From Bacteroidota bacterium (GTDB lineage: Bacteria; Bacteroidota; Bacteroidia; CAILMK01), in the NCBI GenBank assembly GCA_013288555.1, contig JABDBQ010000011.1, positions 1-64,000 on the forward strand: DNA of 64,000 nucleotides, written 5' to 3'. This document shows positions 8,230-34,548 of the stretch, piece by piece. Position 1 is the stretch's first letter; each line of letters starts with the position of its first letter. The notes under the pieces are model-generated. The model ran no database searches. It was not told the origin of the DNA and saw nothing but the letters and a program-made list of their open reading frames with translations. The translations under genes and the position numbers were made by a program.

Positions 8230-8514
8230 ACAATGCATCTAGTCAGGGCTTCGAGAAACCAGCCACTGTATTGTTCGTTATTTTCTATTTCCTATTCTCA
8301 TTCTCGAATTCCCAAATTCCAAGTTTCAAGTTTCAAATTTGAACTTTCCATCAGAGTCTCACCCGGAACCATGTTGCTGACCCACAAATCAATGTGGACT
8401 CTGATGTTCTACTCACAAGAATTGTGCTTGCATTCGCGTATTCCTCAGAGTCCCCTCGGCGATGGATGGGTTAGGATCATATAAGGGGGAGACATCTGAG
8501 GGAAAGATAAAAAA
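8230..8514. other. Non-coding stretch
   Basis: I see no convincing gene. A short open frame here has no family features. Part of the stretch is low-complexity (repeats of TTCAAGTTTCAAATTTG at about 8325-8345), matching similar runs at 30340-30415 and 41405-41433. Confidence 0.5.
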
Positions 8515-20039: not shown

Positions 20040-20112
20040 GCCGCTTTAGCTCAGTTGGTAGAGCATCGCATTCGTAATGCGAGGGTCGAGGGTTCAAGTC
20101 CCTTGAGCGGCT
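20040..20112 (+). tRNA. tRNA-Thr (anticodon CGT)
   Basis: A complete cloverleaf: acceptor GCCGCTT paired with GAGCGGC (one G-T), D-arm GCTC...GAGC, anticodon stem TCGCA/TGCGA with loop TTCGTAA (CGT, reads ACG) and a T-arm GAGGG-TTCAAGT-CCCTT. The discriminator is T, and CCA is not encoded. A REP cluster starts immediately downstream. Confidence 0.95.
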
Positions 20113-20114
20113 CT

Positions 20115-21636: not shown

Positions 21637-21676
21637 CATTTTTCTTATGACCAACTTGTCATTTCGACCACCCCGT

Positions 21677-21777
21677 TTGTCATTTCGACGCAGGAGAAAT
21701 CTGGCGTATACTAATTGAAATCTCTGTACTTAATTAAACTAAGCTTAAATCAGATTTCTCCTGCGTCGGAATGACAA
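21677..21777. repeat. Inverted repeat, full element C pair
   Basis: Left arm 21677-21703 begins TTGTCATTTCGACGCAGG; right arm 21751-21777 is its complement with 26 of 27 bases matching. A 47-base AT-rich centre separates them. An extra partial left copy lies at 21656-21666. It sits exactly between the T9SS protein and the leftmost phage-type gene, so it may mark the boundary or serve as a terminator. Confidence 0.7.
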
Positions 21778-21801
21778 GAACGTAGGGATAGAAAACGCCG
21801 A

Positions 21802-22374
21802 TCAATTACCCTTACCGAAATGCAATTTCCATCTCAACCCGAGACTATGTGCCCCTGAGATCATATCATAATGATATTGAATCAATGCATCTTTTTTGGT
21901 AAGCAGTGCTAATGAAATACCTGCCACAGGCTGCAGATTTCGTGATGAATATCCCGCGAATCCGCCAATAAAAATTCTGTTCGTTGGCTTTGTAGACAAT
22001 GTCGTTAAATGCAGGTTTCGGCTATTCTCAATCAGCACTTTATGTCCTGCTATTTTATTATCAGAAACACTGTCTTCTATGACAGCCGTCACATCCCTGG
22101 CCTCAATAGTATCCCTGTAAATCCGGCTCGCAAAATAATCTTTGATCATAGCAGATGTATCTACTTTTGAAATACTTTGCGGATAATAAATTTTATACGG
22201 TTTAAAAACAGTGTCCTGTACCAGAAATAATTGACTGTCTCCATGAACTACGATAGTATCATGTTTGAACAGATTATCTTTTTGTTTTTGAATGGAACAG
22301 GAACGCTGCAACAAGATAATGACAAGGAGCAGGCACGACAATATCCATCCTGTCCATTTTAATTTATCAATCAT
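21802..22374 (-). CDS. Phage-cassette protein with N-terminal membrane anchor
   Basis: About 190 residues from the ATG at 22374, which overlaps the upstream stop. The hydrophobic segment WILSCLLLVIILL (about residues 8-22) is followed by a coiled, polar stalk (QRSCSIQKQKDNLF). The last 60 residues are beta-rich (IFIGGFAGYSSRNLQPVAGISLALLTKK ... GLRWKLHFGKGN) and resemble DUF6808-type tail-end proteins of Bacteroidota prophages. By position, last after two holin-like genes, a spanin-like lysis role is possible but is inference. Confidence 0.55.
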   Translation of the reverse strand: MIDKLKWTGWILSCLLLVIILLQRSCSIQKQKDNLFKHDTIVVHGDSQLFLVQDTVFKPYKIYYPQSISKVDTSAMIKDYFASRIYRDTIEARDVTAVIEDSVSDNKIAGHKVLIENSRNLHLTTLSTKPTNRIFIGGFAGYSSRNLQPVAGISLALLTKKDALIQYHYDMISGAHSLGLRWKLHFGKGN

Positions 22375-22582
22375 GTGAATTATGGTTTTCAAGGGTTTGC
22401 TTGACAATTTCTTCTGGTGATTTTTGAGCGTCTTTGGAAAAGAGCAGTCCTATGCCTGAAAGGATAATTGGGCCACTTTCAATCCAGTTTTGTTTGGCAG
22501 TCAAGCCGGTGTACAAGCCGGCTGCAATTAAGATACAGCCGAGCAGGCTGGTTTTCCAGTTTTCAATGATCATTGTTTTCAT
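22367..22582 (-). CDS. Small membrane protein, holin-like
   Basis: The 71-residue protein has two hydrophobic segments, residues 11-26 (SLLGCILIAAGLYTGL) and 36-48 (GPIILSGIGLLFS), and a polar C-terminal tail. Size, topology and place in the cassette fit a phage holin or antiholin. Its start overlaps the preceding gene by 20 bases and its stop overlaps the next, so the lysis-type genes are tightly coupled. Confidence 0.5.
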   Translation of the reverse strand: MKTMIIENWKTSLLGCILIAAGLYTGLTAKQNWIESGPIILSGIGLLFSKDAQKSPEEIVKQTLENHNSHD

Positions 22583-22766
22583 GATTGTTTTCTTTTTGAT
22601 TTTCGGGTTTTAAAAATTCGTGGTATATCTTAAGACAGACATAGATGGCTGATGGAAGGCCGAATGCCAGTTTGATACTCCAGTCGATGGCGCTGAGCCA
22701 GATACCGGCATTTACTGCGGATACCTGGACGGTATTGTTTGATATAAAACTTATTAATGATTTCAA
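22563..22766 (-). CDS. Small membrane protein, holin-like
   Basis: The 67-residue product starts at a TTG (22766) with no in-frame ATG upstream. It carries a moderately hydrophobic stretch over residues 12-46 (AVNAGIWLSAIDWSIKLAFG, then LPSAIYVCLKIYHEF) and an Asn/Glu/His-rich tail. It resembles the first holin-type gene of Bacteroidota prophages. Function by context only. Confidence 0.45.
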   Translation of the reverse strand: MKSLISFISNNTVQVSAVNAGIWLSAIDWSIKLAFGLPSAIYVCLKIYHEFLKPENQKENNHENNDH

Positions 22767-22779
22767 GGATTCGATTCAT

Positions 22780-24054
22780 TTAAAAATGTTTGCGGCAAAG
22801 TAGATAAGGTTGAGTGGCACTTTTAGCAACGGAAGATGCAGTTGGAAATGTTTGATAGGAAATCCTTAGCGCTGCCGTGGTTGCACTATAATTCGTGGTC
22901 GAGGACCAGACCTGTGCAGAGCTGACAGGGTTCAAATTAAAGGGCGCATAATTCAAACAAACGGCAGAATACTGTGTAATAGAAAGCACTTCATTGGCAT
23001 TGGGCAATTTGAAATCATTATAGGTATTCGCTCCAACAGTGAGTGATAATGTGTTTGCAATGGCTGTCGCCCAGGTGGCGGAGGTTTGCAATGTGGTACA
23101 CCATCCCAGCCCGGTAGCATGGTCAATAACATAATTGCTTCCAAATACCTGTGCGCCATTCTCGTCCGTAAAGCGGTGGGTGTTCCCAAAACTGTTGTTG
23201 GTCTTCAGGGTAAAAAAATCAGTGAGCCTACCATGCTGCAGGTTGCCGTCATCACCGGTGGCATAAGAGGTAGTCTGCCCGGTCTGGAGCGTATAAATCT
23301 CATTTATGGAATTTCGTTGTATTGTACTCAGGTTATCCTGCAAAAACTGGTTGCTCATTACAGTGCCTAAAACGTATTTCAACTGGGAAGAAGTGAGGTT
23401 TGCCAACTGGCTGTTTACCAGTTCCTGAACCTGGGCGGCACTCATATATCCGATCTGGGTATTTGTAAGGGAATACGTTGACAGCAAAGTACCGGATGAA
23501 TTATATGTTTTCAATACCAGTTTTGCAACGACATTTGTATCTGTCATAAAATGCAGCCATGCATTTGTTCCAGGTCTTATACTCTGAACTATAGGTGCAT
23601 TGGTCAGGAATTTCTTTTGGACAGATGCTGCAATCAGCCAGTCGGTCTGGTTATAATTCAGGAAATCCGGGAAATCAAAAACAGAATTAAATACGTATCG
23701 CTTTTCTTCTGTTACAAGAGAAAGATATTGAACCGGGCCGGTAGGATCCGAGCCATACTCCTCGCCAAACTTTACGATATAAGGATAGCCACTTGCACTG
23801 TTCTTTTCGAAATTTACCGTAGCCGCATCAATATCGTAGTGGACATAATTTTCAAGGATCCTATGCAGGTCGAACATGCCGTAGCCATCCGGTTGCGGGA
23901 TACGTTTGATGCGTGCCAACCTTGTAGTACCGTCGGCTGCATATATATCACAGATATACTTATAGTTGGGCTGACTCTGATTGCTGCTGGTAACTACGTA
24001 TACCAGTTCGTTATACGCAGGACTGAATTTTGATGGGTATTGGGTTATGGTCAT
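22780..24054 (-). CDS. Phage tail protein with C-terminal DUF1566 lectin-like domain
   Basis: The 424-residue protein starts MTITQYPSKFSPAYNELVYVV, like minor tail or baseplate proteins of Bacteroidota prophages. Residues 1-180 are beta-rich, and 180-290 form a Thr/Gln/Leu-rich linker. From about 300 the chain reads VIDHATGLGWCTTLQTSATW, YNDFKLPNANEVLSI, AQVWSSTTNY and YLLCRKHF: the tGL.W...a....W.a...RLPn..El...WSST...cR pattern of DUF1566, a C-type-lectin-like fold. This fold is used for receptor binding and is a known target of diversity-generating retroelements; no reverse transcriptase is seen here. Likely a host-recognition protein. Confidence 0.65.
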   Translation of the reverse strand: MTITQYPSKFSPAYNELVYVVTSSNQSQPNYKYICDIYAADGTTRLARIKRIPQPDGYGMFDLHRILENYVHYDIDAATVNFEKNSASGYPYIVKFGEEYGSDPTGPVQYLSLVTEEKRYVFNSVFDFPDFLNYNQTDWLIAASVQKKFLTNAPIVQSIRPGTNAWLHFMTDTNVVAKLVLKTYNSSGTLLSTYSLTNTQIGYMSAAQVQELVNSQLANLTSSQLKYVLGTVMSNQFLQDNLSTIQRNSINEIYTLQTGQTTSYATGDDGNLQHGRLTDFFTLKTNNSFGNTHRFTDENGAQVFGSNYVIDHATGLGWCTTLQTSATWATAIANTLSLTVGANTYNDFKLPNANEVLSITQYSAVCLNYAPFNLNPVSSAQVWSSTTNYSATTAALRISYQTFPTASSVAKSATQPYLLCRKHF

Positions 24055-24103
24055 GGGGAAATTGGTGAGTTAGTGAGTTAAAAGAATTCCACAAAATCGT
24101 AAT

Positions 24104-24604
24104 TCATAATTCGTAATTCATAATTGATTTTACGTCTTGTTTGAAGGCAGCACTTAAACTATTATTTAACTCCTTAAATAAGTCGGGGTTAATTGTATTC
24201 GAATAGAAATTCGTGGCAGGAATTCCATCCCTGGCTATCTTCCTTCCGATAAGATATGCAAGACTTTTGAGCTGGTTTTGTTGTGATAAAACGGTCGACA
24301 TTCCGTTTCTGTTTTTAATTTTTTTTAGCGTCGACTTTTGGATTACGTTGAGTTGCTTATTTTGAATCCAACTGGCTATAATATCCGGCGGCGGGAACTT
24401 TCCGGGCTTCCTGCCCCGGTCTATAAAATTATAATAATCTGCCAGTTGCAACTGAAACACAATCGGGAAGCCTGCATAATTAATGCTAAAGCTGATACTA
24501 TTGCCCAAGAATTGATCAGGATCTTTTTCAGGAGGTATGGCAGTCTTTAATGCAGATACAATCTTCTCACCCCAGGCTTCTAAAGTGTTTTGAATATTTT
24601 CCAT
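24104..24604 (-). CDS. HK97 gp10-like phage head-tail/tail completion protein
   Basis: The 166-residue protein has the segment YYNFIDRGRKPGKFPPPDIIASWI followed by LAYLIGRKIARDGIPATNFYSN, a pair of blocks typical of small tail-completion proteins (gp10-like) in Bacteroidota prophages. Its last codons are made of an AATTATGAATTACG direct repeat that continues past the stop to about 24080, so the C-terminus may have been altered by a repeat expansion. Confidence 0.6.
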   Translation of the reverse strand: MENIQNTLEAWGEKIVSALKTAIPPEKDPDQFLGNSISFSINYAGFPIVFQLQLADYYNFIDRGRKPGKFPPPDIIASWIQNKQLNVIQKSTLKKIKNRNGMSTVLSQQNQLKSLAYLIGRKIARDGIPATNFYSNTINPDLFKELNNSLSAAFKQDVKSIMNYEL

Positions 24605-24657
24605 TATACTTCATATTTATTGTATATCAAACTATCTTAACTGTTGGCCGTTGACTG

Positions 24658-24906
24658 CTAATTGTTTACTTTTTGTTGATTCTTCGCCTTCAAAAACGAG
24701 ATCCTGTTCATGAATTCGATAACATTCATTTTTTCATAATACTGCCAGAGGTTTCCGTTCCCGTTACTTAAGGCATCAAGGACTATAAACCAGCCGTAAC
24801 GCTCATGATATCCATCATTTCTGTTTGTATCTGGTTCATCTTCTTTGTCGTCTCGGTCTTCAAATAATCCTGCATAGCTACTGTTAAATGCTGCGAGAGA
24901 TTGCAA
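24658..24906 (-). CDS. Tail-chaperone C-terminal extension (-1 frame)
   Basis: An 82-codon frame opens right at a T9 run (minus strand, 24913-24905) inside the upstream chaperone gene and overlaps it by 124 bases in the -1 frame. No normal start exists; the first codon is the TTG generated by the T run. The C-terminal block RYGWFIVLDALSNGNGNLWQYYEKMNVIEFM resembles the conserved 'YGWfivl..LadGdi.k.deV..l' part of phage tail chaperones. It is most likely expressed only as a fusion through -1 slippage, giving about 252 residues. A homopolymer error is the alternative. Confidence 0.55.
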   Translation of the reverse strand: MQSLAAFNSSYAGLFEDRDDKEDEPDTNRNDGYHERYGWFIVLDALSNGNGNLWQYYEKMNVIEFMNRISFLKAKNQQKVNN

Positions 24907-25415
24907 AAAAAAACCAGTATCGGATAAGCGATCGACATTGACATGTTTTCATATAAAAATGCGGCCCGCTCTGAGTGATCTTTGCCATCATATTTTATGG
25001 GAATCAAGCCCCATTTCAATGGGGCTACTATCACTGCCAGGACATTATGAATATTCGCTGTGGGGTTTTCATTTTCTTTCAAAAATGTCATCAGGTCAAT
25101 ATACTGTCCGCCGCTAAGATCGGAGGCATTTAAGTTGATTTTGAACCATTTGCCTTTGATGCAAAAGCGCAAATGCTTAGAACTCTTCAATGGCCTGATC
25201 AAATCAAGGTTGTTCAGGAAGCTGATCTTATCAAGGCATTCGTGCAAAGTTTTCAGCGGCAAAGCCAGGATTTCGCTCCTGGATATGCCTGAAAGAAGCG
25301 AAATGATTTCAACATCTTTACCGTGATTATCAAGACTTTTGTCGTTAATTATTTTTTCAAAACCGCAATAGGTTTTCAGGGAAATCTCTTTCCATGAGGT
25401 TGGTAGTTTGGGCAT
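24783..25415 (-). CDS. Phage tail-assembly chaperone-like protein
   Basis: The 210-residue zero-frame product begins MPKLPTSWKEISLKTYCGFEKI and contains EIISLLSGISRSEILALPL, the pattern of Bacteroidota prophage proteins that sit where the lambda gpG/gpGT pair sits. At codons 168-171 it crosses GTT TTT TTT TGC, a canonical T TTT TTT slippery heptamer. Without slippage it continues 40 residues (NLSQHLTVAMQDYLKTETTK...) to a TAG. The next phage module, the tape measure, is absent. Confidence 0.55.
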   Translation of the reverse strand: MPKLPTSWKEISLKTYCGFEKIINDKSLDNHGKDVEIISLLSGISRSEILALPLKTLHECLDKISFLNNLDLIRPLKSSKHLRFCIKGKWFKINLNASDLSGGQYIDLMTFLKENENPTANIHNVLAVIVAPLKWGLIPIKYDGKDHSERAAFLYENMSMSIAYPILVFFCNLSQHLTVAMQDYLKTETTKKMNQIQTEMMDIMSVTAGL

Positions 25416-25473
25416 AAAAATCTTTTAATATATAAATTTTTTAATCTTCAATTTTTTAATCTTTTAATTGTCT

Positions 25474-26628
25474 CTATCTCATCGCATATTTCCCACTTGG
25501 TCTTAATCCATGGGTATGAACAGCATATCTGATCGCATCAAGCGCATGATCATTGAATTTGACCGGTTCATCAATCAGGTTCCCGTTCGCATCTTCTTTC
25601 CATTTGTAGCCTTGTCGTTCTTTGAGGATATTGGTACTGCGGCGTGTTACAAATACTTTCATCCGTTTCATCTTATCAATCCCATCTTTCACACTTTTGT
25701 CAGCTGATTTGCAGTTTAATCCCGCCTTCCTGATCTCAGCTATCCGCTGTGGTTCTGCAGCATCAGCATAGATACTTGCATGAGCTGGCAGTAAATCATT
25801 CATCCTTATAATGAGCTCACTATTTGTAAGGTAGGTCTGATAGATCAATTCATCCACCCAAAGCTGGTTCCCGTCTTTCAAACAGCATTTCACAAGGGCA
25901 GTGGGAACATTATACCCGAAATCCAATCCGTAAAACACATCTCCTCCTTCTGGTAACTCATCCACGATATCCCAGGCATTGTATATGGTTGTTTTCAACT
26001 GACCTCTCTCACCGAGCCCGTATATCCTCCAGAGATTTTCATCCGTTTCTTTCAGTCTTTCAATTTCCTTTATGATATTTTTATCCAGGAAGTGATTGTC
26101 TTTATATGTTGACTTTATAAAAGTGCAATCAGTCCTTATCAACAGATGCTCATAGATCCAATGGTTCTCATCAACAGGATTGTAATCGATAAATACCTGT
26201 TTCCGGGTTCGTAACATCAACTGGTTAAATGTTTCATAAGGAACTAAATTACATTCGTTTACAAACAGGATATCTCTTCTTGGGCCACGGGCTTTGCCGG
26301 GATCATCGAGACTGAAAAATTCGATGCGGCTTTTACTGATTTTGAAAATATTATCCGTTTTGTTATAAAATTGCTCATCATACAAATCATATGCGTTCAG
26401 CATATTGGTAAAGTCAAGCAAGGCACCTTTTTTCAGATGCGGCAAACTCACCGAACAAACCGAAATATGCAATTTCTCTTTGATGGCTTTTGCAACCAAT
26501 GCCTGCAAAACCGACCAGGTCTTCCCTGAAGATGTACCTCCCTGGTTGACAATAATCCGATCCGGCGATTCAAGATTTTTTGATAATATCTCCGATCCTT
26601 TGTATTTGAGTTTTTTAGTCTTCAACAT
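25474..26628 (-). CDS. Phage terminase large subunit (Terminase_3/PBSX type)
   Basis: At 384 residues, this packaging motor has the ATPase part with Walker A GGTSSGKT (about 31-38) and Walker B DILFVNECN (about 126-134), and the RNase H-like nuclease with acidic residues in FYGLDFGYNVPTALV, IYADAAEPQRIAEI and NDHALDAIRYAV. All key residues seem present. The ATG at 26628 overlaps the stop of the small-terminase frame by 14 bases. Normally a portal gene follows; here the tail-chaperone gene starts 58 bases after the stop, so the head genes are missing. Confidence 0.9.
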   Translation of the reverse strand: MLKTKKLKYKGSEILSKNLESPDRIIVNQGGTSSGKTWSVLQALVAKAIKEKLHISVCSVSLPHLKKGALLDFTNMLNAYDLYDEQFYNKTDNIFKISKSRIEFFSLDDPGKARGPRRDILFVNECNLVPYETFNQLMLRTRKQVFIDYNPVDENHWIYEHLLIRTDCTFIKSTYKDNHFLDKNIIKEIERLKETDENLWRIYGLGERGQLKTTIYNAWDIVDELPEGGDVFYGLDFGYNVPTALVKCCLKDGNQLWVDELIYQTYLTNSELIIRMNDLLPAHASIYADAAEPQRIAEIRKAGLNCKSADKSVKDGIDKMKRMKVFVTRRSTNILKERQGYKWKEDANGNLIDEPVKFNDHALDAIRYAVHTHGLRPSGKYAMR

Positions 26629-26959
26629 CGTCGATACATTTATGGATAATGGTTATTTCCACTTCATTAATATCGCTACCCGGTGGTTCTTTCCTGGCCT
26701 TAATTTCAGGACTAAAATATTTGGCGACAGCATTACCAAACGCTATCCGGTCTTTGTGACTGAGACTTTCAACATCTTCATTCAATGTCTTGATGCACTT
26801 ATCAAAAACTTGACGTAAAGCATCATCCCAGTTTTGACCTCATCCTTCTGCGCCTGACTTTTCTGCCGCGCTTTTTCGGGCTTGCGTTTTGGTGCTGACT
26901 TTCCTTTTGGTTGCCGGTCGGGAGGAGGCTTTGGGTTTCTGATGGGTCTTTGGTTTCAT
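26615..26959 (-). pseudogene. Small terminase subunit-like gene interrupted by TGA
   Basis: One frame reads from ATG at 26959: 39 codons of basic Lys/Pro/Ser-rich sequence (MKPKTHQKPKASSRPATKRK...) to a TGA at 26842-26840. The same frame then stays open for 74 codons (NWDDALRQVFDKCIKTLNED ... HKDRIAFGNAVAKYFSPEIKA ... EVEITIIHK) to TAA at 26617-26615 inside the large-terminase start. The second half looks like the helix-rich C-terminus of small terminase or DUF5681-type proteins. Either a nonsense mutation, TGA readthrough, or an indel: adding one base at the T4 run 26832-26835 joins another open frame ending KARQKSQAQKDEVK. Overlaps the 3' end of the next gene upstream. Confidence 0.5.
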
Positions 26960-27203
26960 GGGTTTCTTTTTGTTTGATTTGATTCAATATCTCACGCTCA
27001 TACTGGTTAAAAAGCGTCGTGATCATTTCTTCTACACATACACTGCAGTACAACCTCACAGGTGCCGGATGAAGTTCTTCGCGATACACAGAAGCAATGG
27101 CTTCCAGGGTCGGCAGGTTGATAGGTGGAATGCATTTGTTAGCCTTATAATATTCCCAGAATGGCAGGTAATTGCGTAGCTTTTCTAAGTTGGTTGGCGA
27201 CAT
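26823..27203 (-). CDS. Phage-cassette protein with Cys pair, unknown function
   Basis: The 126-residue product begins MSPTNLEKLRNYLPFWEYYKANKC and has the segment VRLYCSVCVEEMITTLF, with a CxxC that might bind metal together with the earlier Cys. The C-terminus is basic and low-complexity (KKRGRKVRRRRMRSKLG) and is encoded in DNA that is open in all three frames, overlapping the broken small-terminase frame. A DNA-binding or packaging-associated role fits its place before the terminase, but is inference. Confidence 0.5.
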   Translation of the reverse strand: MSPTNLEKLRNYLPFWEYYKANKCIPPINLPTLEAIASVYREELHPAPVRLYCSVCVEEMITTLFNQYEREILNQIKQKETHETKDPSETQSLLPTGNQKESQHQNASPKKRGRKVRRRRMRSKLG

Positions 27204-27247
27204 AAATCAATTGGTTGGTTTAGGGTTATTTATTCTTGTTTCATCAA

Positions 27248-28234
27248 TCAGGATTTAAATGCATCTGTTACGATTTTTAATGAATCTTCAAATCGTTTGA
27301 GTTGGAAATTATGCTTGAGTTGCTCCATGTGTACGAGGCCATATTGCTGCCTGACTTCATCGCTTTCTAAAGTGATTCTACCTGCCCACAATCCCTCGTG
27401 AAATATACTGAAATCCTGCCTGTTAAAATTAAGATCGATGGGCGTTTTTGCAGTAATAGTTAAAAGGAATACGAAATAAGCCATCCCTACAACCTGCCGC
27501 ATCAGGAATAACCGGGCATGCTGGTATTCAGTTGCTTTCGCCCCGAAATAACTACACAGGAAATCCTTTTCCTCTGTATCGTTTCTTACAACAAAGTTTG
27601 CGACCATTGCCAGGTCTGAATATCGGTCATTCAAAAATGCAGCTTCCCAGTCCACAAGCCAGGGTCGCTCCCCATCATAGATAATATTTTCAGGCTTCAC
27701 GTCATTGTGACAGGATACCATATCAGGACCTATGCGTGGGTAAATGCTTGAAATTCTTGAATACTGATGGAACAAATCTTCGGTCATGTTTTCAGGTAAT
27801 ATTTTCACGTCCCTGAATTTCTGGATAAAACTATCAATAAAATCAAAATACTTTACCGTGTACGGGAAAGGCGGAAGTGCATGCAAATCTTTTAGCAACA
27901 AAGGCATTTTAACTCTTGCTTCATCTACAGAAAAAGGTTCAGGCTCTATAAAATCCGTAATAGAAATACGGTCTTCGATGCCAGTATACCAGATCTTTGG
28001 GGCAAGACCCGCCTCTGCTGCCGGCTTCATGCAGGAATAATAGTGCGTTGGGTCGGCCATCGCATCTGTTCGCATAATGACACGAAGGAGATAGGCATTG
28101 CCCTTCACCACAATCCGGAAAATAAGAGCAGATGAAAGTCCGGCAGTGAGTTGGCGGATATCTTCAAATTCATTTGTCCCGAAAGCAATATTAAGAGCGT
28201 TAGCAACAGCAGATTTTTTCTCTTCAGGAATCAT
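27248..28234 (-). CDS. Choline kinase/aminoglycoside phosphotransferase-fold enzyme
   Basis: The 328-residue protein has a kinase-like fold. TAGLSSALIFRIVVKGNAYLLRV forms the nucleotide loop and Lys/Arg strand, SCHNDVKPENII holds the Brenner catalytic Asp and Asn, and LVDWEAAFLNDRYSDLA holds the metal-binding Asp. These are the marks of the APH/ChoK family, closest by eye to choline/ethanolamine or LicA-like kinases. It phosphorylates a small molecule using ATP in the cytoplasm. It sits inside the phage cassette, in the same direction but with wide gaps each side (44 and 201 bases), so it looks like cargo. Antibiotic resistance is possible but not supported. Confidence 0.78.
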   Translation of the reverse strand: MIPEEKKSAVANALNIAFGTNEFEDIRQLTAGLSSALIFRIVVKGNAYLLRVIMRTDAMADPTHYYSCMKPAAEAGLAPKIWYTGIEDRISITDFIEPEPFSVDEARVKMPLLLKDLHALPPFPYTVKYFDFIDSFIQKFRDVKILPENMTEDLFHQYSRISSIYPRIGPDMVSCHNDVKPENIIYDGERPWLVDWEAAFLNDRYSDLAMVANFVVRNDTEEKDFLCSYFGAKATEYQHARLFLMRQVVGMAYFVFLLTITAKTPIDLNFNRQDFSIFHEGLWAGRITLESDEVRQQYGLVHMEQLKHNFQLKRFEDSLKIVTDAFKS

Positions 28235-28435
28235 AAAAGTTATCAGTTAATGTTGTTTAAATGGGCCAAATATATAGTCGTTTTGAAGCTTCCGGCAAGC
28301 ATTTTATGTTTATTTTTTTTATTTGAACTTTGTTTAAAAAATGGACGTTAAGCCTATAACTGACCTTGTATTTTAATCGCTGAATATTTTAATTTATCGG
28401 ACTTTAGTACCGGATCATTGATTATTGATCATTGA

Positions 28436-28693
28436 TCATTTCTTCAGTGTTTTAGAAATAAAAACAGCAACAATAGAACTCATTGCGGCAAACAATGGCG
28501 CAGCCAGAAATTGCTTTTGAAACATAAACAAAATGAGTGCAATCCACCATGCAAGGCACATTGGGCAATCAAACGGTTTCAGTCGGTTAAAATTCAGTCT
28601 ATATTTGACCCATTGTACCAATCCTGAGGTTTCCGCAATTAAGACAGCCATACAGGCACAAGAAATTATTAATAGCAGGTTTTGCATTGTCAA
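28436..28693 (-). CDS. Small membrane protein with CPMC motif
   Basis: The 85-residue protein has three hydrophobic segments, and after the first a FDCPMCLAWWIALILF block. A Cys-x-x-Cys at a membrane face followed by Trp-rich helix is common to small proteins encoded near glycosyltransferases in Bacteroidota prophages (DUF1360-like). Function unknown. It follows the glycosyltransferase by 28 bases on the same strand and may be cotranscribed. Confidence 0.5.
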   Translation of the reverse strand: MTMQNLLLIISCACMAVLIAETSGLVQWVKYRLNFNRLKPFDCPMCLAWWIALILFMFQKQFLAAPLFAAMSSIVAVFISKTLKK

Positions 28694-28721
28694 TATTTTA
28701 ATCTTTTAATTTTTCAATTTT

Positions 28722-29801
28722 TCAATTCAACAGGTTTCTGTACAACTCCGCCCTCGTTTTATTCACGATATCAATATGATAGGTTAGTATTATATCCTCA
28801 TGCAATTGTTCCTCGAGATCCTGTACAAGATTCGGATTATTTACCAGCTTTTTCATACTCAGGTACCAGGCTGATTTATAGTTGGTTTCTCTTATCACAA
28901 GACAATTGATCCCCGGCTTCGCTATTGCTTTATAAGGCATTACATCACTTACGATCATGGCCTTTTTCATAAAGCCGGCCTCGATCATTTTCAGTTCGCT
29001 TTTGCAGTTGTTAAACAGGTTATGGGTGAGAGGAGCGAGTGCGACATCAAACAAGTTATAGCCCTGCGCATAACTGAAAACATTTGCGGCATAGATCCGG
29101 TAATAGGTATTATCATTGCATTCGAGTTGCCTGGTAAAAATATTTTCGAATTCCTGATACATTCCTGACGTGTCATCTTTACTAAAACCCATGAGATAAA
29201 GCTGGTACTTATACTTTAGTGTTTCATCAGAATTCAGTATTTTAAAACTGTTTTCCATGAGTTTAATATCTTCCTTATGACAAACGCCGCCCACCCAGCC
29301 AAATCGTGTCAGGGAAGAAGGAGCGGGATTGATTTCGAATTGTGGCTGGGCGGGATCAATGGCGTTTGGCAGGACCGTCACATAAGGGTTTATCCTTTTG
29401 ATCAGGTCTGCAAAAAAGGGGGTAGTGGTGGTTATATGATCTGAATTTTTTAAACTAACTAACGTTTGTTCGCTTATTTTCTCTTTGGCATAAGCGGTAT
29501 ATAAAAGATGCCCGGGATACAATTCCCAATAATCATCGATATCCAGTATGGAAATAATTCCAAGCTTTTTCAAACGGTACAGGACTTCTTTTGAATTTCC
29601 GTTCCAGGAAACCATTCGGCTGAACTGTATCAATTGAAACTGTCTCAGAAAATCATCGCTCGCCGACTCGATCTCATTGATCTGGTGTACCTCAAATTCA
29701 TCTTTATAATGACTGTTGAGATGGTAATGCGGTATCAGCTGGCGATGGTATTCCACGCCGGTTAAATGCGTATTTACGACGATCAGGATTTTAGTTCTCA
29801 T
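28722..29801 (-). CDS. Glycosyltransferase (GT-B, group 1-like)
   Basis: The 359-residue protein has a GT-B layout: a divergent N-terminal Rossmann half (ILIVVNTHLTGVEYHRQLIPHY), an ILDIDDYWELYP segment that occurs in many group 1-like transferases, TTTTPFFADLI, VLPNAIDPAQP and a C-terminal half with GWVGGVCHKEDI, NLFDVALAPLTHN and KSELKMIEAGFMKKAMIVSD. The SELKMIEAG glutamate fits the EX7E region. Nucleotide-sugar donor and acceptor are unknown. Its ATG overlaps the sigma-like gene stop by four bases (ATGA), so the two are translationally coupled. A role in altering the host surface is plausible for phage cargo. Confidence 0.8.
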   Translation of the reverse strand: MRTKILIVVNTHLTGVEYHRQLIPHYHLNSHYKDEFEVHQINEIESASDDFLRQFQLIQFSRMVSWNGNSKEVLYRLKKLGIISILDIDDYWELYPGHLLYTAYAKEKISEQTLVSLKNSDHITTTTPFFADLIKRINPYVTVLPNAIDPAQPQFEINPAPSSLTRFGWVGGVCHKEDIKLMENSFKILNSDETLKYKYQLYLMGFSKDDTSGMYQEFENIFTRQLECNDNTYYRIYAANVFSYAQGYNLFDVALAPLTHNLFNNCKSELKMIEAGFMKKAMIVSDVMPYKAIAKPGINCLVIRETNYKSAWYLSMKKLVNNPNLVQDLEEQLHEDIILTYHIDIVNKTRAELYRNLLN

Positions 29802-30325
29802 CTGTACATGAATTGTTTGAACTGTGGGTTTTTGCGGATGCGTTCTTTTACTTTATTCACAGTGTAACGAATGCTGTTGCGGTTGATCCGGGTTTTCCGT
29901 GCCAGCTTACGGGCGCTGTTCAGATCCATCACTGCCCTGAAAAGCTCACGCTCATACCAATCCATTTTATCCAGTTCCTTATTTATAAAGTTGATGATTT
30001 CTGTATCATCTTCTTCCATCGCATCAGACTTTTCGGCCCATATTGTTGCCACTCCGGGCATATATTTTATCACCTTATCCATATGCCTGTATTTAAGAGA
30101 AAAAGTACTGGTTTGTGAGTGGTACAAATTATTGATGATCCTTTTCGCGAACAGCCTGAACCATTCTTTCGAATAAACCTCTGGCAGGTTATCGTATGTG
30201 AGTAAAGCAAAAATAAATTCCTGGTAGAGGTCATCTACAAGGTCGCGGCGGGCTATTTTACGGCAGAGATCCTTATAGTACCTACAGCGGCTGATTTCTA
30301 TAATAATATGATTGTTGGTTTTCAT
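29798..30325 (-). CDS. Sigma-70-like transcription factor of the phage cassette
   Basis: The 175-residue protein has a region 2-like N-terminus (RRDLVDDLYQEFIFALL, a D-D-L-x-Q-E-F-x-x motif) and a region 4-like helix-turn-helix at the C-terminus (SARKLARKTRINRNSIRYTVNKVKERI). Length is usual for compact sigma factors. As first gene of the leftward operon it probably drives late cassette genes. The upstream 490 bases contain element A copy 2, whose conserved TATATATGTACAT end lies some 145 bases before the start codon and is a candidate control region. Confidence 0.65.
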   Translation of the reverse strand: MKTNNHIIIEISRCRYYKDLCRKIARRDLVDDLYQEFIFALLTYDNLPEVYSKEWFRLFAKRIINNLYHSQTSTFSLKYRHMDKVIKYMPGVATIWAEKSDAMEEDDTEIINFINKELDKMDWYERELFRAVMDLNSARKLARKTRINRNSIRYTVNKVKERIRKNPQFKQFMYR

Positions 30326-30339
30326 TGTTTTGTGATTGG

Positions 30340-30450
30340 TGATTTGAAACTTGAAATTGGAAATTAGAAACTTGAAACTTGTGATTTGAAATTTGTGATT
30401 TGAAATTTGAAATTAGTAAATGGTAAATGGTAGTTGGTAAATGGTCAGTG
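30340..30450. repeat. Low-complexity GATTTGAAA / GGTAAAT repeats
   Basis: GATTTGAAACTTGAAATT-type units repeat irregularly over about 75 bases, then GGTAAAT units repeat four times. The block lies between the sigma-like gene and element A copy 2. Similar TTTCAAATTTCAA runs appear at 8316-8345, 41405-41433 and 44295-44310. Confidence 0.5.
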
Positions 30451-30460
30451 ATTGTATCGC

Positions 30461-30588
30461 GTTTTTAATGTACATATATAGTGAAGTGGCAAAGTGGGTG
30501 GATGGTTTTGAAAAATAATTTTCAATCAATTTTTAATCAATACGTTACAAGCGAAAATATTTTTGAAAATGTTTTACTTTTCTAAAAA
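30461..30588 (-). repeat. Dispersed element A, copy 2, upstream of the phage cassette
   Basis: Reversed copy of the unit at 8515-8630. On the minus strand it reads ATTTTCGCTTGTAACG, TATTGATTAAAAATTG, ATTTTTCAAAACC, ATCCACCCACTTTGCCA and CACTATATATGTACATT. It points towards the sigma-like gene and could contain the promoter for the cassette. Confidence 0.65.
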
Positions 30589-30619
30589 CCGGTCTGATTT
30601 TAGTCTTCGAAGCAGGCTT

Positions 30620-30655
30620 TCACTTACGCCTTGCCCCCTTATTCCTTACGCCTCC
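30620..30655. repeat. CTTACGCC short repeats, reversed GGCGTAAGG array
   Basis: CACTTACGCCTTGCC followed by TTCCTTACGCCTCC is the reversed, looser form of the arrays at 8632-8662 and 37783-37813, again next to an element A copy. Confidence 0.5.
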
Positions 30656-30686
30656 TTTCAGGACGTATTTACAAATTTTGTTGGTA

Positions 30687-30799
30687 TTTGCTCGTTTATT
30701 ACAATAATAGTTGTATATTTGTAGCACATATTGGCATATTTTAAAATTGTGAGGAGCAAATATACTACTATAGTTGTAATTACAATGAAGTTTGTACAA
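30687..30799 (+). promoter_or_regulatory. Repressor promoter with TTGTA/TACAA operators
   Basis: A -7 box TATATTTG at 30714-30721 has a TTTG at 30687-30690 upstream (spacing 23, a little long). Palindromes built of TTGTA/TACAA surround it: TACAA-TAATAG-TTGTA at 30700-30715, perfect TTGTAATTACAA at 30774-30785, and TTGTACAA at 30792-30799. Their placement between -33 and -7 and in the leader suggests autoregulation by the adjacent repressor. Confidence 0.5.
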
Positions 30800-30818
30800 T
30801 TATTTTTGTAAAAATATT

Positions 30819-31670
30819 ATGAATAAATTAACGGTTTCAAACTCAGATAGTTTCCGCGAACGCATTGGATATTTCCACAAAGAATTCCTGGGAATGCCTC
30901 AATATGTCTTCGCCGAAAGCATCGGTCTTGGACAGGAAAGGGTACGCAAAAGCCTCATGCCGGGAAAGCAACCCACCGCTGAATTTTTTGAAGCTATCTT
31001 CAACACCTACCCCGATCTGAATCCGGATTGGATCTTTACCGGGCGAGGCGCAATGCTTCATTCCAAAGAGGAGACGCTCACACCCTATATGGCTCAAGAA
31101 TCATTTTCAAAACCAAGCTCAGAACAAGTGTCAGGCAAAAACCTCCGCGTGCTTTGTATTACCAACGACTCATCAGGCAATGAAAACGTGGAAGTGGTGA
31201 ATACCAAAGCCGCCGCAAGCTATATCGACAATATACAGGAGCCGCAGTTCCTTTCCAGTCTGCCCAAGATAAGCCTGCCGGGCAATGTCTTCCGTGGCGG
31301 CACCTTCAGGGCCTTTGAGGTAAAGGGAAACAGTATGGAGCCTACCATTCAGCAGGGCTCATGGGTAATTGGTCAGTATGTACAAGACTGGTTGACGCTC
31401 AAAGATGATTATATCTATATCGTGGTGATGCAGGATGCTATACTTATCAAACGGATTCTCAACCGTATTGATAAGCGACAAGGCCTCGTGCTGAAAAGCG
31501 ATAACCGCGAATATGAAAATAAAAACATTGACATTGACGAAGTAAAAGAACTCTGGCTATTGAAAGCCGAAATGCGCTACGACTTTAAAAACCCGAGCAA
31601 GGAAATGTATCTGCAACTTCAACATCTGATGGCTGATGTGGAAGATATTAAGAATAAGATCGGGCTTTAG
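30819..31670 (+). CDS. Phage-type repressor with S24 (LexA/CI-like) peptidase domain
   Basis: The 283-residue protein starts at ATG 30819; a TTG 27 bases upstream would add MYNYFCKNI over an operator and is unlikely. An N-terminal helix-turn-helix region (FRERIGYFHKEFLGMPQYVFAESIGLGQERV, residues 12-42) is followed by LNPDWIFTGRGAML, usual in Bacteroidota prophage regulators. The C-terminal S24 domain has Ser172 in GNSMEPTI and Lys211 in AILIKRIL, a correct Ser-Lys dyad spacing. No obvious Ala-Gly cleavage site is seen in the linker. It is divergent from the leftward cassette and probably keeps it silent. Confidence 0.82.
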   Translation: MNKLTVSNSDSFRERIGYFHKEFLGMPQYVFAESIGLGQERVRKSLMPGKQPTAEFFEAIFNTYPDLNPDWIFTGRGAMLHSKEETLTPYMAQESFSKPSSEQVSGKNLRVLCITNDSSGNENVEVVNTKAAASYIDNIQEPQFLSSLPKISLPGNVFRGGTFRAFEVKGNSMEPTIQQGSWVIGQYVQDWLTLKDDYIYIVVMQDAILIKRILNRIDKRQGLVLKSDNREYENKNIDIDEVKELWLLKAEMRYDFKNPSKEMYLQLQHLMADVEDIKNKIGL

Positions 31671-33360: not shown

Positions 33361-34476
33361 TCAATGATCATCTTTAAGATTGAGCAAGTAGTGTGTGCTA
33401 CGTCCCCCACCTTCAATGATGAATGCTTTAATCCCTGAGAGGTGTTGTAAGTCCCTTGTCGCAGTGGCTTTTGTGGTTTTCGCGATGGCTATATATTTCG
33501 CTGCGCTCATGCCACCTTCAAATCCCTCAGGGCCAGCATCAAACATCCTTTTCATTACTTTTAGCTGACGCTCATTGAGCATATCCTTGAAATGATCGAA
33601 GAACTTCGTTTTCTTCAAGGTGAAATCTATGAGTTGTCGCGCTTGTCGCTGAGCCAGAAGAATCGTTTCTATGAAATATTTTATCCATGGAGAAATATGG
33701 TTGCTTCGTTGCCCTTTTTCCAATGCTGCATAGTATTGCCGTTTATTGACTTCTATGGTTTTCGAAAGGCTTAGTAATACAGGACGTTTCAATGTTTGCG
33801 ACAAGGCTTTTTCAGCAATGGCACGTCCGATCCTTCCATTACCATCTTCGAAAGGGTGGATAGACTCAAAATACAAATGCGCAATGGCAGACCTTACCAG
33901 AGCTTTTTTGATCTGCTTTTTGCCCCCCGGCGCCGTTTCATTAAACCATGCAATAAACCGATCCATTTCGGAGGGTACCTGTTTTGAAGATGGCGCCTCA
34001 AAGTGAATTTTTTCTTTGCCTGCCGCACCTGAAATCACCTGCATAGGCTCTTTATGCGAACGCCATTTCCCGATCTGCAACCCGCGACTGCCTTCCATCA
34101 GCATTTTATGCCAGGAAAATAATTTTTCTTTGCTTAATGGTTCCTGGTAGGTTTGCCTTACATCTACCATCAAACTACCAATGCCATGCACCCTTTTGTC
34201 GCGGACATTTGCGGGTTTCCTGTTCAACCCCAGATTATTCCGGATAGAAGAAACCACATCCTGCCTGTTGAGGTATTCTCCTTCTATCTCAGAAGTTTTT
34301 ATAGCCTCCGAAACCATCATGTTTACCAAAGTATCCGACTGCGAATCTTTTGACAAGGCATTCAGAATACCTGAAACACGTCCCATCTCTTCCGCAAAAG
34401 AGAACATAATATCCTCTATTTCTGTGATATCGTATTTGAAATCAGGCCAGTCAGGCTGTTGCCAGTTATAAATCAT
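33361..34476 (-). CDS. Fic family protein with DUF4172-like N-terminus and C-terminal winged helix
   Basis: About 371 residues from ATG 34476. The Fic core HPFEDGNGRIGR (207-218) is complete, with catalytic His, so the protein should transfer AMP (or another NMP) to a hydroxyl on a target protein. The inhibitory helix motif T-x-x-x-E-G is at 61-66 (TSEIEG), so activity is auto-inhibited. The N-terminus YNWQQPDWPDFKYD is DUF4172-like. The C-terminal NERQLKVMKRMFD...AKTTKATATRDLQHLSGIK segment is a winged helix. Two identical operators cover its promoter and start (34476-34548), so it may repress itself. The stop lies in an ATGATCATT repeat. Confidence 0.88.
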   Translation of the reverse strand: MIYNWQQPDWPDFKYDITEIEDIMFSFAEEMGRVSGILNALSKDSQSDTLVNMMVSEAIKTSEIEGEYLNRQDVVSSIRNNLGLNRKPANVRDKRVHGIGSLMVDVRQTYQEPLSKEKLFSWHKMLMEGSRGLQIGKWRSHKEPMQVISGAAGKEKIHFEAPSSKQVPSEMDRFIAWFNETAPGGKKQIKKALVRSAIAHLYFESIHPFEDGNGRIGRAIAEKALSQTLKRPVLLSLSKTIEVNKRQYYAALEKGQRSNHISPWIKYFIETILLAQRQARQLIDFTLKKTKFFDHFKDMLNERQLKVMKRMFDAGPEGFEGGMSAAKYIAIAKTTKATATRDLQHLSGIKAFIIEGGGRSTHYLLNLKDDH

Positions 34477-34548
34477 GAGCCAAATATACAACTTATTCGG
34501 CTCATAATATCACAATTTTTGAGCCGAATAGACATTTTATTCGGCTCA
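34476..34548 (-). promoter_or_regulatory. Fic promoter with two tandem 29-bp operators
   Basis: The unit is an 11-base arm TGAGCCRAATA, seven bases, and TATTCGGCTCA. Copy one spans 34476-34504 (one arm base changed); copy two spans 34520-34548, perfect. A -7 box TATATTTG (34488-34481, minus) lies inside copy one, 4 bases before the ATG, so a bound protein would block the polymerase, and the transcript would be almost leaderless. Confidence 0.65.

Follow-up and report, generated by a model that had tools for sequence, protein, structure and literature searches.

Capsid-forming phage-inducible chromosomal islands (cf-PICIs) and other satellites are small phage-derived elements that carry packaging genes. 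A phage-derived cassette with packaging genes was found in a Bacteroidota bacterium (GTDB lineage Bacteria; Bacteroidota; Bacteroidia; CAILMK01), in a stretch of 64,000 nucleotides of assembly GCA_013288555.1 (contig JABDBQ010000011.1, positions 1 to 64,000, forward strand; hereafter, the window). The host assembly of 2.84 Mb is divided over 102 contigs, of which contig 11 contains the window, and is 67.5% complete. The cassette (21802-31670) consists of a single leftward block (30325-21802) of sigma-like, glycosyltransferase (GT), small membrane, kinase, terminase, tail-type and lysis-position genes and a divergent S24-type repressor gene (for gene names, see Table 1). The initial annotation had described a cassette from which a head module was missing precisely between the terminase stop (25474) and the start of the adjacent gene (25415), and had suggested a satellite that borrows capsids, a domesticated device or a prophage with one clean deletion. 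Comparison with related phages indicated that the cassette is very probably a defective prophage remnant of approximately 10 kb, reduced by several deletions, rather than an element of a novel type.

Among cultured phages, Bacteroides phage BO1 and Parabacteroides phage PM708P3 encode large terminases (TerL) approximately 41% identical to that of the window. Unlike the cassette, these are complete phages, in which no g07 homologue was recognised next to TerL. In both, no head genes occur between TerL and the tail genes, and the portal gene (plus an annotated capsid gene in BO1) lies after the tape-measure gene.

Gene order in related phages and prophages

TerL homologues were gathered from relatives of the window genome, IMG/VR and GTDB genomes, and the genes around them were used to build profiles. 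Both by TerL and by genome kinship, the relatives of the window genome were Bacteroidota. In many of the TerL-homologue loci, TerL was followed by a g07 homologue, a gene termed gX, g05, g04, distal-tail and tape-measure genes, and capsid and portal genes came later. TerL was joined to g07 without an intervening head gene in seven IMG/VR contigs that carried the sigma-GT-g12 block, in three Chitinophaga prophages and in further related contigs. Two loci had head-type genes directly after TerL; neither g07 nor the sigma/GT/g12 block was recognised there. Related phages thus natively carry g07 next to TerL, and the site between 25474 and 25415, which the initial annotation had taken for that of the missing head module, is not a deletion. 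In this lineage head genes follow tail genes, an unfamiliar gene order that is easily misread as a precise deletion.

Reference contigs were found by a GT search. One of these, IMGVR_UViG_3300042939_000090 (34,973 bp), was read as overlapping loci and assembled into a full circular map, as indicated by a 127-bp exact overlap between its ends. Its genes occur in the order sigma, GT, g12, g10, small terminase (TerS), TerL, g07, g05, g04, distal tail and tape measure, followed by protease, capsid, portal, connectors, fibre, small and holin-like genes, endolysin, anchor and an early region that leads back to sigma. The XkdF-type protease (PF14550, E 5.3e-16), portal (PF04860, E 4.1e-14) and M15 endolysin (PF08291, E 4e-18) were identified by family matches and the capsid gene by profile; the fibre-like protein comprises 495 aa. 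The window genes matched this phage in the same order, with an E-value of 5e-83 for the GT. Like the window, the reference phage and its relatives, which include the L186/L189 group, have the series sigma-GT-g12-g10-TerS-TerL-g07 (with its second frame)-g05-g04 and a holin-like-to-anchor block that closes the late region. Unlike the window, the reference phage has distal-tail, tape-measure, protease, capsid, portal, fibre and endolysin genes and an early region. In addition, its operon lacks the kinase gene and its TerL is of a distant type, so that the lineage is mosaic.

The three Chitinophaga prophages (C. cymbidii NZ_BKAU01000001, C. sp. sic0106 and C. polysaccharea) share with the window an operon of sigma, g12, g10-like, TerL, g07, g05 and g04 genes. 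The GT gene adjoins sigma in two of the three, but on the opposite side of sigma as compared with the window. All three differ from the window in having head genes after the tail genes and a full g04 C-terminus. In C. cymbidii, the only prophage traced to its end and the one in which portal and integrase genes were seen, the order TerL-g07-g05-g04-distal tail-tape measure-protease-capsid-portal was followed by an integrase gene (PF00589, E 5.6e-11). The viral contig with the nearest TerL, IMGVR_UViG_3300010401_000080 (L012), also shares GT (41% identity), sigma-like, g12 and anchor homologues with the window and, unlike the window, has an early region and a lysozyme-like gene.

A hybrid g04 gene at the proposed deletion junction

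The module that follows g04 in complete relatives was absent from the window: among all window ORFs of at least 25 aa, distal-tail, tape-measure, portal and capsid profiles gave no matches. Homology to the relatives ended inside g04. Similarity to g04 of the reference phage extended over residues 1-198 (E 1e-31), with nothing beyond, and the match to a g04 profile of 503 positions stopped at position 202. A conserved C-terminal segment (approximately positions 350-500 of the profile) was retained in every full-length g04 relative that has the N-terminal part, and the window g04 was the sole case in which this segment was missing. Its remainder carried an Lcl_C lectin-like domain. The gene labelled as a lectin-like tail protein in the initial annotation is a hybrid of two genes. 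The hybrid forms a single open frame of 424 codons, whose stop lies 13 bp ahead of the first holin-position ORF. Near the corresponding place, the reference phage has its fibre gene, from which two small genes separate the holin-like genes. A deletion from within g04 into a fibre gene would leave such a hybrid, with a predicted breakpoint near 23460 in the window. From coordinates, the block between the two junction points in the reference phage was estimated at approximately 11.7-13 kb. Involvement of a diversity-generating retroelement acting on Lcl_C was also considered and rejected, as no second copy of the g04 3' end was present in the window; no genome-wide search for a reverse transcriptase was made.

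Losses at other positions were consistent with further deletions. Only 0.47 kb remains between the starts of the S24 (30792) and sigma-like (30325) genes, as compared with an early region of approximately 9.6 kb from anchor to sigma in the reference phage. No endolysin gene was found in the interval from the holin-position ORFs to the anchor gene, and no integrase or replication gene was recognised among the cassette ORFs (21802-31670).

Based on these comparisons, the ancestor would have been a temperate tailed phage of approximately 35 kb, from a Bacteroidota-infecting lineage. Its late operon would have comprised sigma-like, GT and small genes, TerS, TerL, g07, g05, g04, distal tail, tape measure, protease, capsid, portal, fibre, holin-like, endolysin and anchor genes. 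A deletion of approximately 11.7-13 kb would then have fused g04, at codon ~198, with the 3' portion of a fibre-like gene with Lcl_C, thereby removing the genes for distal tail, tape measure, protease, capsid, portal and connectors. The early/replication block between the S24 and sigma-like genes, the integrase and the endolysin would have been lost in addition. We infer that the head/tail block was lost in one event, and that the fibre gene contributed the Lcl_C half at the breakpoint given above. A temperate lifestyle is suggested by the repressor in the cassette and by the integrase in the Chitinophaga relative. Particle formation should no longer be possible and a shared function of the genes that remain is improbable, although expression of TerL and the repressor may persist. 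Of the explanations in the initial annotation, that of a prophage with a deletion was thus retained, with the junction moved from the TerL/g07 boundary into g04 and with more than one deletion involved.

Several observations weigh against this interpretation. With only 67.5% of the host genome assembled, head genes may be located elsewhere. No homologue of the Lcl_C half was found in the cultured phages or IMG/VR collections searched, and weak matches were found in four relatives only; as a consequence, the fibre-side breakpoint cannot be fixed exactly and a fibre origin of this half is argued from position only. No relative with a TerL identity above 60% was found, and the L012 contig ends 0.8 kb past its TerL. 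Searches for attachment sites with tRNA-Thr (20040-20113) and other flank repeats gave two unconvincing, A+T-rich matches of 12 bp. Finally, most retained ORFs are full length, which indicates that decay is little advanced.

Features of the cassette

The leftward phage cassette with its divergent S24 repressor was real, and all ORFs of the initial annotation were recovered at their coordinates (Table 1). Its labels of large terminase, GT, kinase and S24 repressor were each supported by a family match, and its statement that the cassette lacks capsid, portal, tape-measure and integrase genes agreed with our searches. The sigma-like gene was conserved in related phages, but its match to TIGR02937 (31.1 bits) was below the curated cut-off of 42.9 bits. 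No family match supported the labels 'holin' and 'chaperone'.

Table 1. Coordinates of the cassette genes and of the proposed junction in the window, with the similarity on which each assignment is based ('phage' refers to reference phage IMGVR_UViG_3300042939_000090).
Feature	Position	Strand	Basis
g01, single-transmembrane anchor (spanin-position) protein, 201 aa	21802..22407	-	Homologue on the L012 contig, E 2e-21
g02, small membrane protein, holin position	22367..22582	-	Position; weak matches
g03, small membrane protein, holin position	22563..22766	-	Position only
g04, hybrid: tail-protein N-terminal 198 residues + Lcl_C domain	22780..24054	-	37% to phage g04; Lcl_C E 2.5e-9
Approximate (proposed) deletion junction within g04	23440..23480	.	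Homology ends at ~codon 198
g05, neck/tail-completion-type protein	24104..24604	-	28% to phage g05, E 2e-10
g06, second-frame extension of g07	24658..24906	-	39% to phage second-frame ORF, E 3e-6
g07, TerL-adjacent late gene	24783..25415	-	31% to phage g07, E 7e-30
TerL, large terminase, intact	25474..26628	-	PHROG 2; Terminase_3; 60% to L012
TerS-like remnant (putative)	26615..26785	-	Weak matches to TerS of three related loci
g10, small late gene, not TerS	26823..27203	-	Homologue adjoins g12 in Chitinophaga prophages (E 5.4e-6) and L186/L189 group
APH/choline-kinase-like gene, between g12 and g10	27248..28234	-	PF01636 E 4.2e-10
g12, small membrane protein	28436..28693	-	43% in L012; kept in Chitinophaga prophages and L186/L189 group
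Phage-type GT	28722..29801	-	phrog_7162 E 9.8e-47; 40% to phage GT
Sigma-like late regulator	29798..30325	-	TIGR02937 E 1.6e-7, below cut-off; conserved in related phages
Divergent S24-type repressor	30792..31670	+	PF00717 E 3.6e-11; phrog_4 E 4.8e-17

TerL matched PHROG 2 (E 1.5e-43) as well as Pfam Terminase_3 (E 2e-25) and has kept all invariant residues of the ATPase and the nuclease; no second Terminase_3-type TerL was found in the host genome. The ORF initially annotated as the small terminase turned out to be the g10 homologue, and a TerS-like sequence was found instead in the short ORF next to TerL. Directly upstream of that ORF, an in-frame TGA at approximately 26840 cuts off the N-terminal part, so that TerS looks broken, with the assignment as TerS-like itself weak.

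The 'tail chaperone' of the initial annotation corresponds to g07, which together with the g06 ORF is, by comparison with relatives, predicted to be one gene read in two frames. A run of nine T residues (24905-24913) marks the point at which a -1 shift would join the frames. The same two-frame overlap was present in four related loci and in the L186/L189 group; the Chitinophaga prophages show this layout. Decay of g07 by frameshift was rejected, because the layout is conserved in complete relatives; this conservation makes a programmed -1 frameshift at the T run probable. Searches of PDB profiles with g05 and g07 gave only matches that were judged to be due to chance. One member of the g05 family matched phrog_5 (E 2.6e-4). 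At the place of g01, the reference phage encodes a 219-aa protein, whose correspondence is by position only.

At the left edge of the cassette, an inverted repeat (21658-21780) contains the motifs GTCATTTCGA and CAGGAGAAATCT; we take it to be similar to a dispersed Bacteroidota repeat. Short arrays of 7-bp repeats occurred at 8320, 8631, 9143, 20006, 24100, 28413, 30342, 30416, 33349, 37782 and 41409, within the cassette as well as in host regions of the window, and were intergenic where checked. A Fic-domain protein (33361-34491; PADLOC SoFic model, E 9.3e-48) is encoded just past the PAS gene that follows the repressor. The two flanks of the cassette were not found together in same-family genomes or in one further genome (G006).

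Alternative explanations

It is very unlikely that the cassette is a domesticated device, for which the host would retain the terminase, the lysis-position proteins and a lectin-tipped tail protein. In its favour, the majority of ORFs are open, phage-like overlaps are preserved, and the kinase gene, which would be an addition to the operon, has no homologue in related phage loci. However, no tape-measure or endolysin gene remains. Searches of three genomes of the same family and eight of the same order returned no TerL homologue, a pattern more in keeping with a recent prophage than with a long-domesticated system. The device suggested by the initial annotation found no positive support. There is likewise little chance that the g04::Lcl_C hybrid, intact terminase and lysis-position genes are kept for a new host function or belong to a dispersed gene-transfer system with unassembled head genes.

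The latter system would be gene-transfer-agent-like, with its head genes in the third of the genome that was not assembled. Dispersed and apparently vertically inherited clusters of head and of tail genes, with homologues of TerL and the tail genes, do occur in other Bacteroidota metagenome-assembled genomes (MAGs), and a genome of the same family (G001) has a head/tail cluster. Several results make this origin highly improbable for the cassette: its TerL groups with the viral contig L012 and not with TerLs of dispersed clusters, its sigma, GT, g12 and g10 genes are of phage type, the truncated g04 probably leaves no working tail, and searches of the rest of the host genome (67.5% complete) for portal, capsid and distal-tail genes were empty. 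The absence of TerL from same-family and same-order genomes also argues against vertical conservation.

Equally improbable is a satellite with its own terminase, packaged in the capsids and tails of a helper prophage. The intact TerL, the divergent S24 repressor and the absence of head genes would suit such an element, but no capsid-resizing or -redirecting gene was recognised in the cassette, nor, as noted above, an integrase or replication gene. Furthermore, its genes are those of a phage late operon in native order, TerS looks broken, and the hybrid g04 lacks its conserved half. Searches of the host genome, which is 67.5% complete, detected neither a portal nor a capsid gene of a helper prophage.

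An assembly or strain-mixture artefact of the MAG that fused two parts of an intact prophage could be suspected in a genome of 102 contigs, but is hardly plausible for a junction that keeps one open frame of 424 codons, for a g04 3' part without a second copy in the window to cause a misjoin, and for a cassette that has also lost its early block and endolysin, at other positions. A tailocin or other contractile device was rejected, since no window ORF matched a tape-measure profile and the Pfam and PHROG hits of the proteins encoded by the cassette included no tail tube or sheath family.

Dispersed head and tail clusters in other Bacteroidota

In one genus, two MAGs, CP096135.1 (G067) and G024, each contained a cluster of TerL and tail genes and a separate head cluster with an S24 regulator, a ClpP-type protease, capsid, portal, connector, peptidase and spanin-like genes. 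In G067, the two clusters are approximately 15 kb apart with host genes between them; in G024, the head cluster is on another contig. An integrase was not noticed in the clusters. Between the two genomes, cluster genes showed dN values of approximately 0.03-0.41 and dS values from 0.8 to saturation. Judged from these sequences, the clusters look like a vertically inherited gene-transfer-agent-like system; a literature search turned up no report of such a system in Bacteroidota.

In a Flavobacteriales MAG (PL25a_bin.101; G056), TerL, a tail cluster and a head cluster were located on three contigs among host-type genes, with head proteins 37-47% identical to those of G024. The G001 cluster comprises tape-measure, distal-tail, protease, capsid-like and portal genes beside host-type genes, and a TerL of the window type was not found in that genome. 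A small cluster, with portal, capsid and protease genes on the minus strand and TerL on the plus strand, was observed at 14 loci in Bacteroidota MAGs, mostly labelled uncultured Bacteroidales, some of which carried several copies of it. The dispersed, conserved head and tail clusters are of more interest than the cassette itself.

Comparison with known systems

A seemingly odd, capsid-less phage cassette can, with high probability, be explained as a deleted prophage. As compared with cf-PICIs, which have capsid and packaging genes and no tails, its gene content is the reverse, and satellites have integrase and replication genes. The cassette retains the operon order sigma/GT/g12/g10/TerS/TerL/g07/g05/g04 of a Bacteroidota phage lineage in which terminase, tail and head genes follow in that order; with the distal tail, tape measure, protease, capsid and portal missing, it is a remnant of that lineage rather than an intact member.

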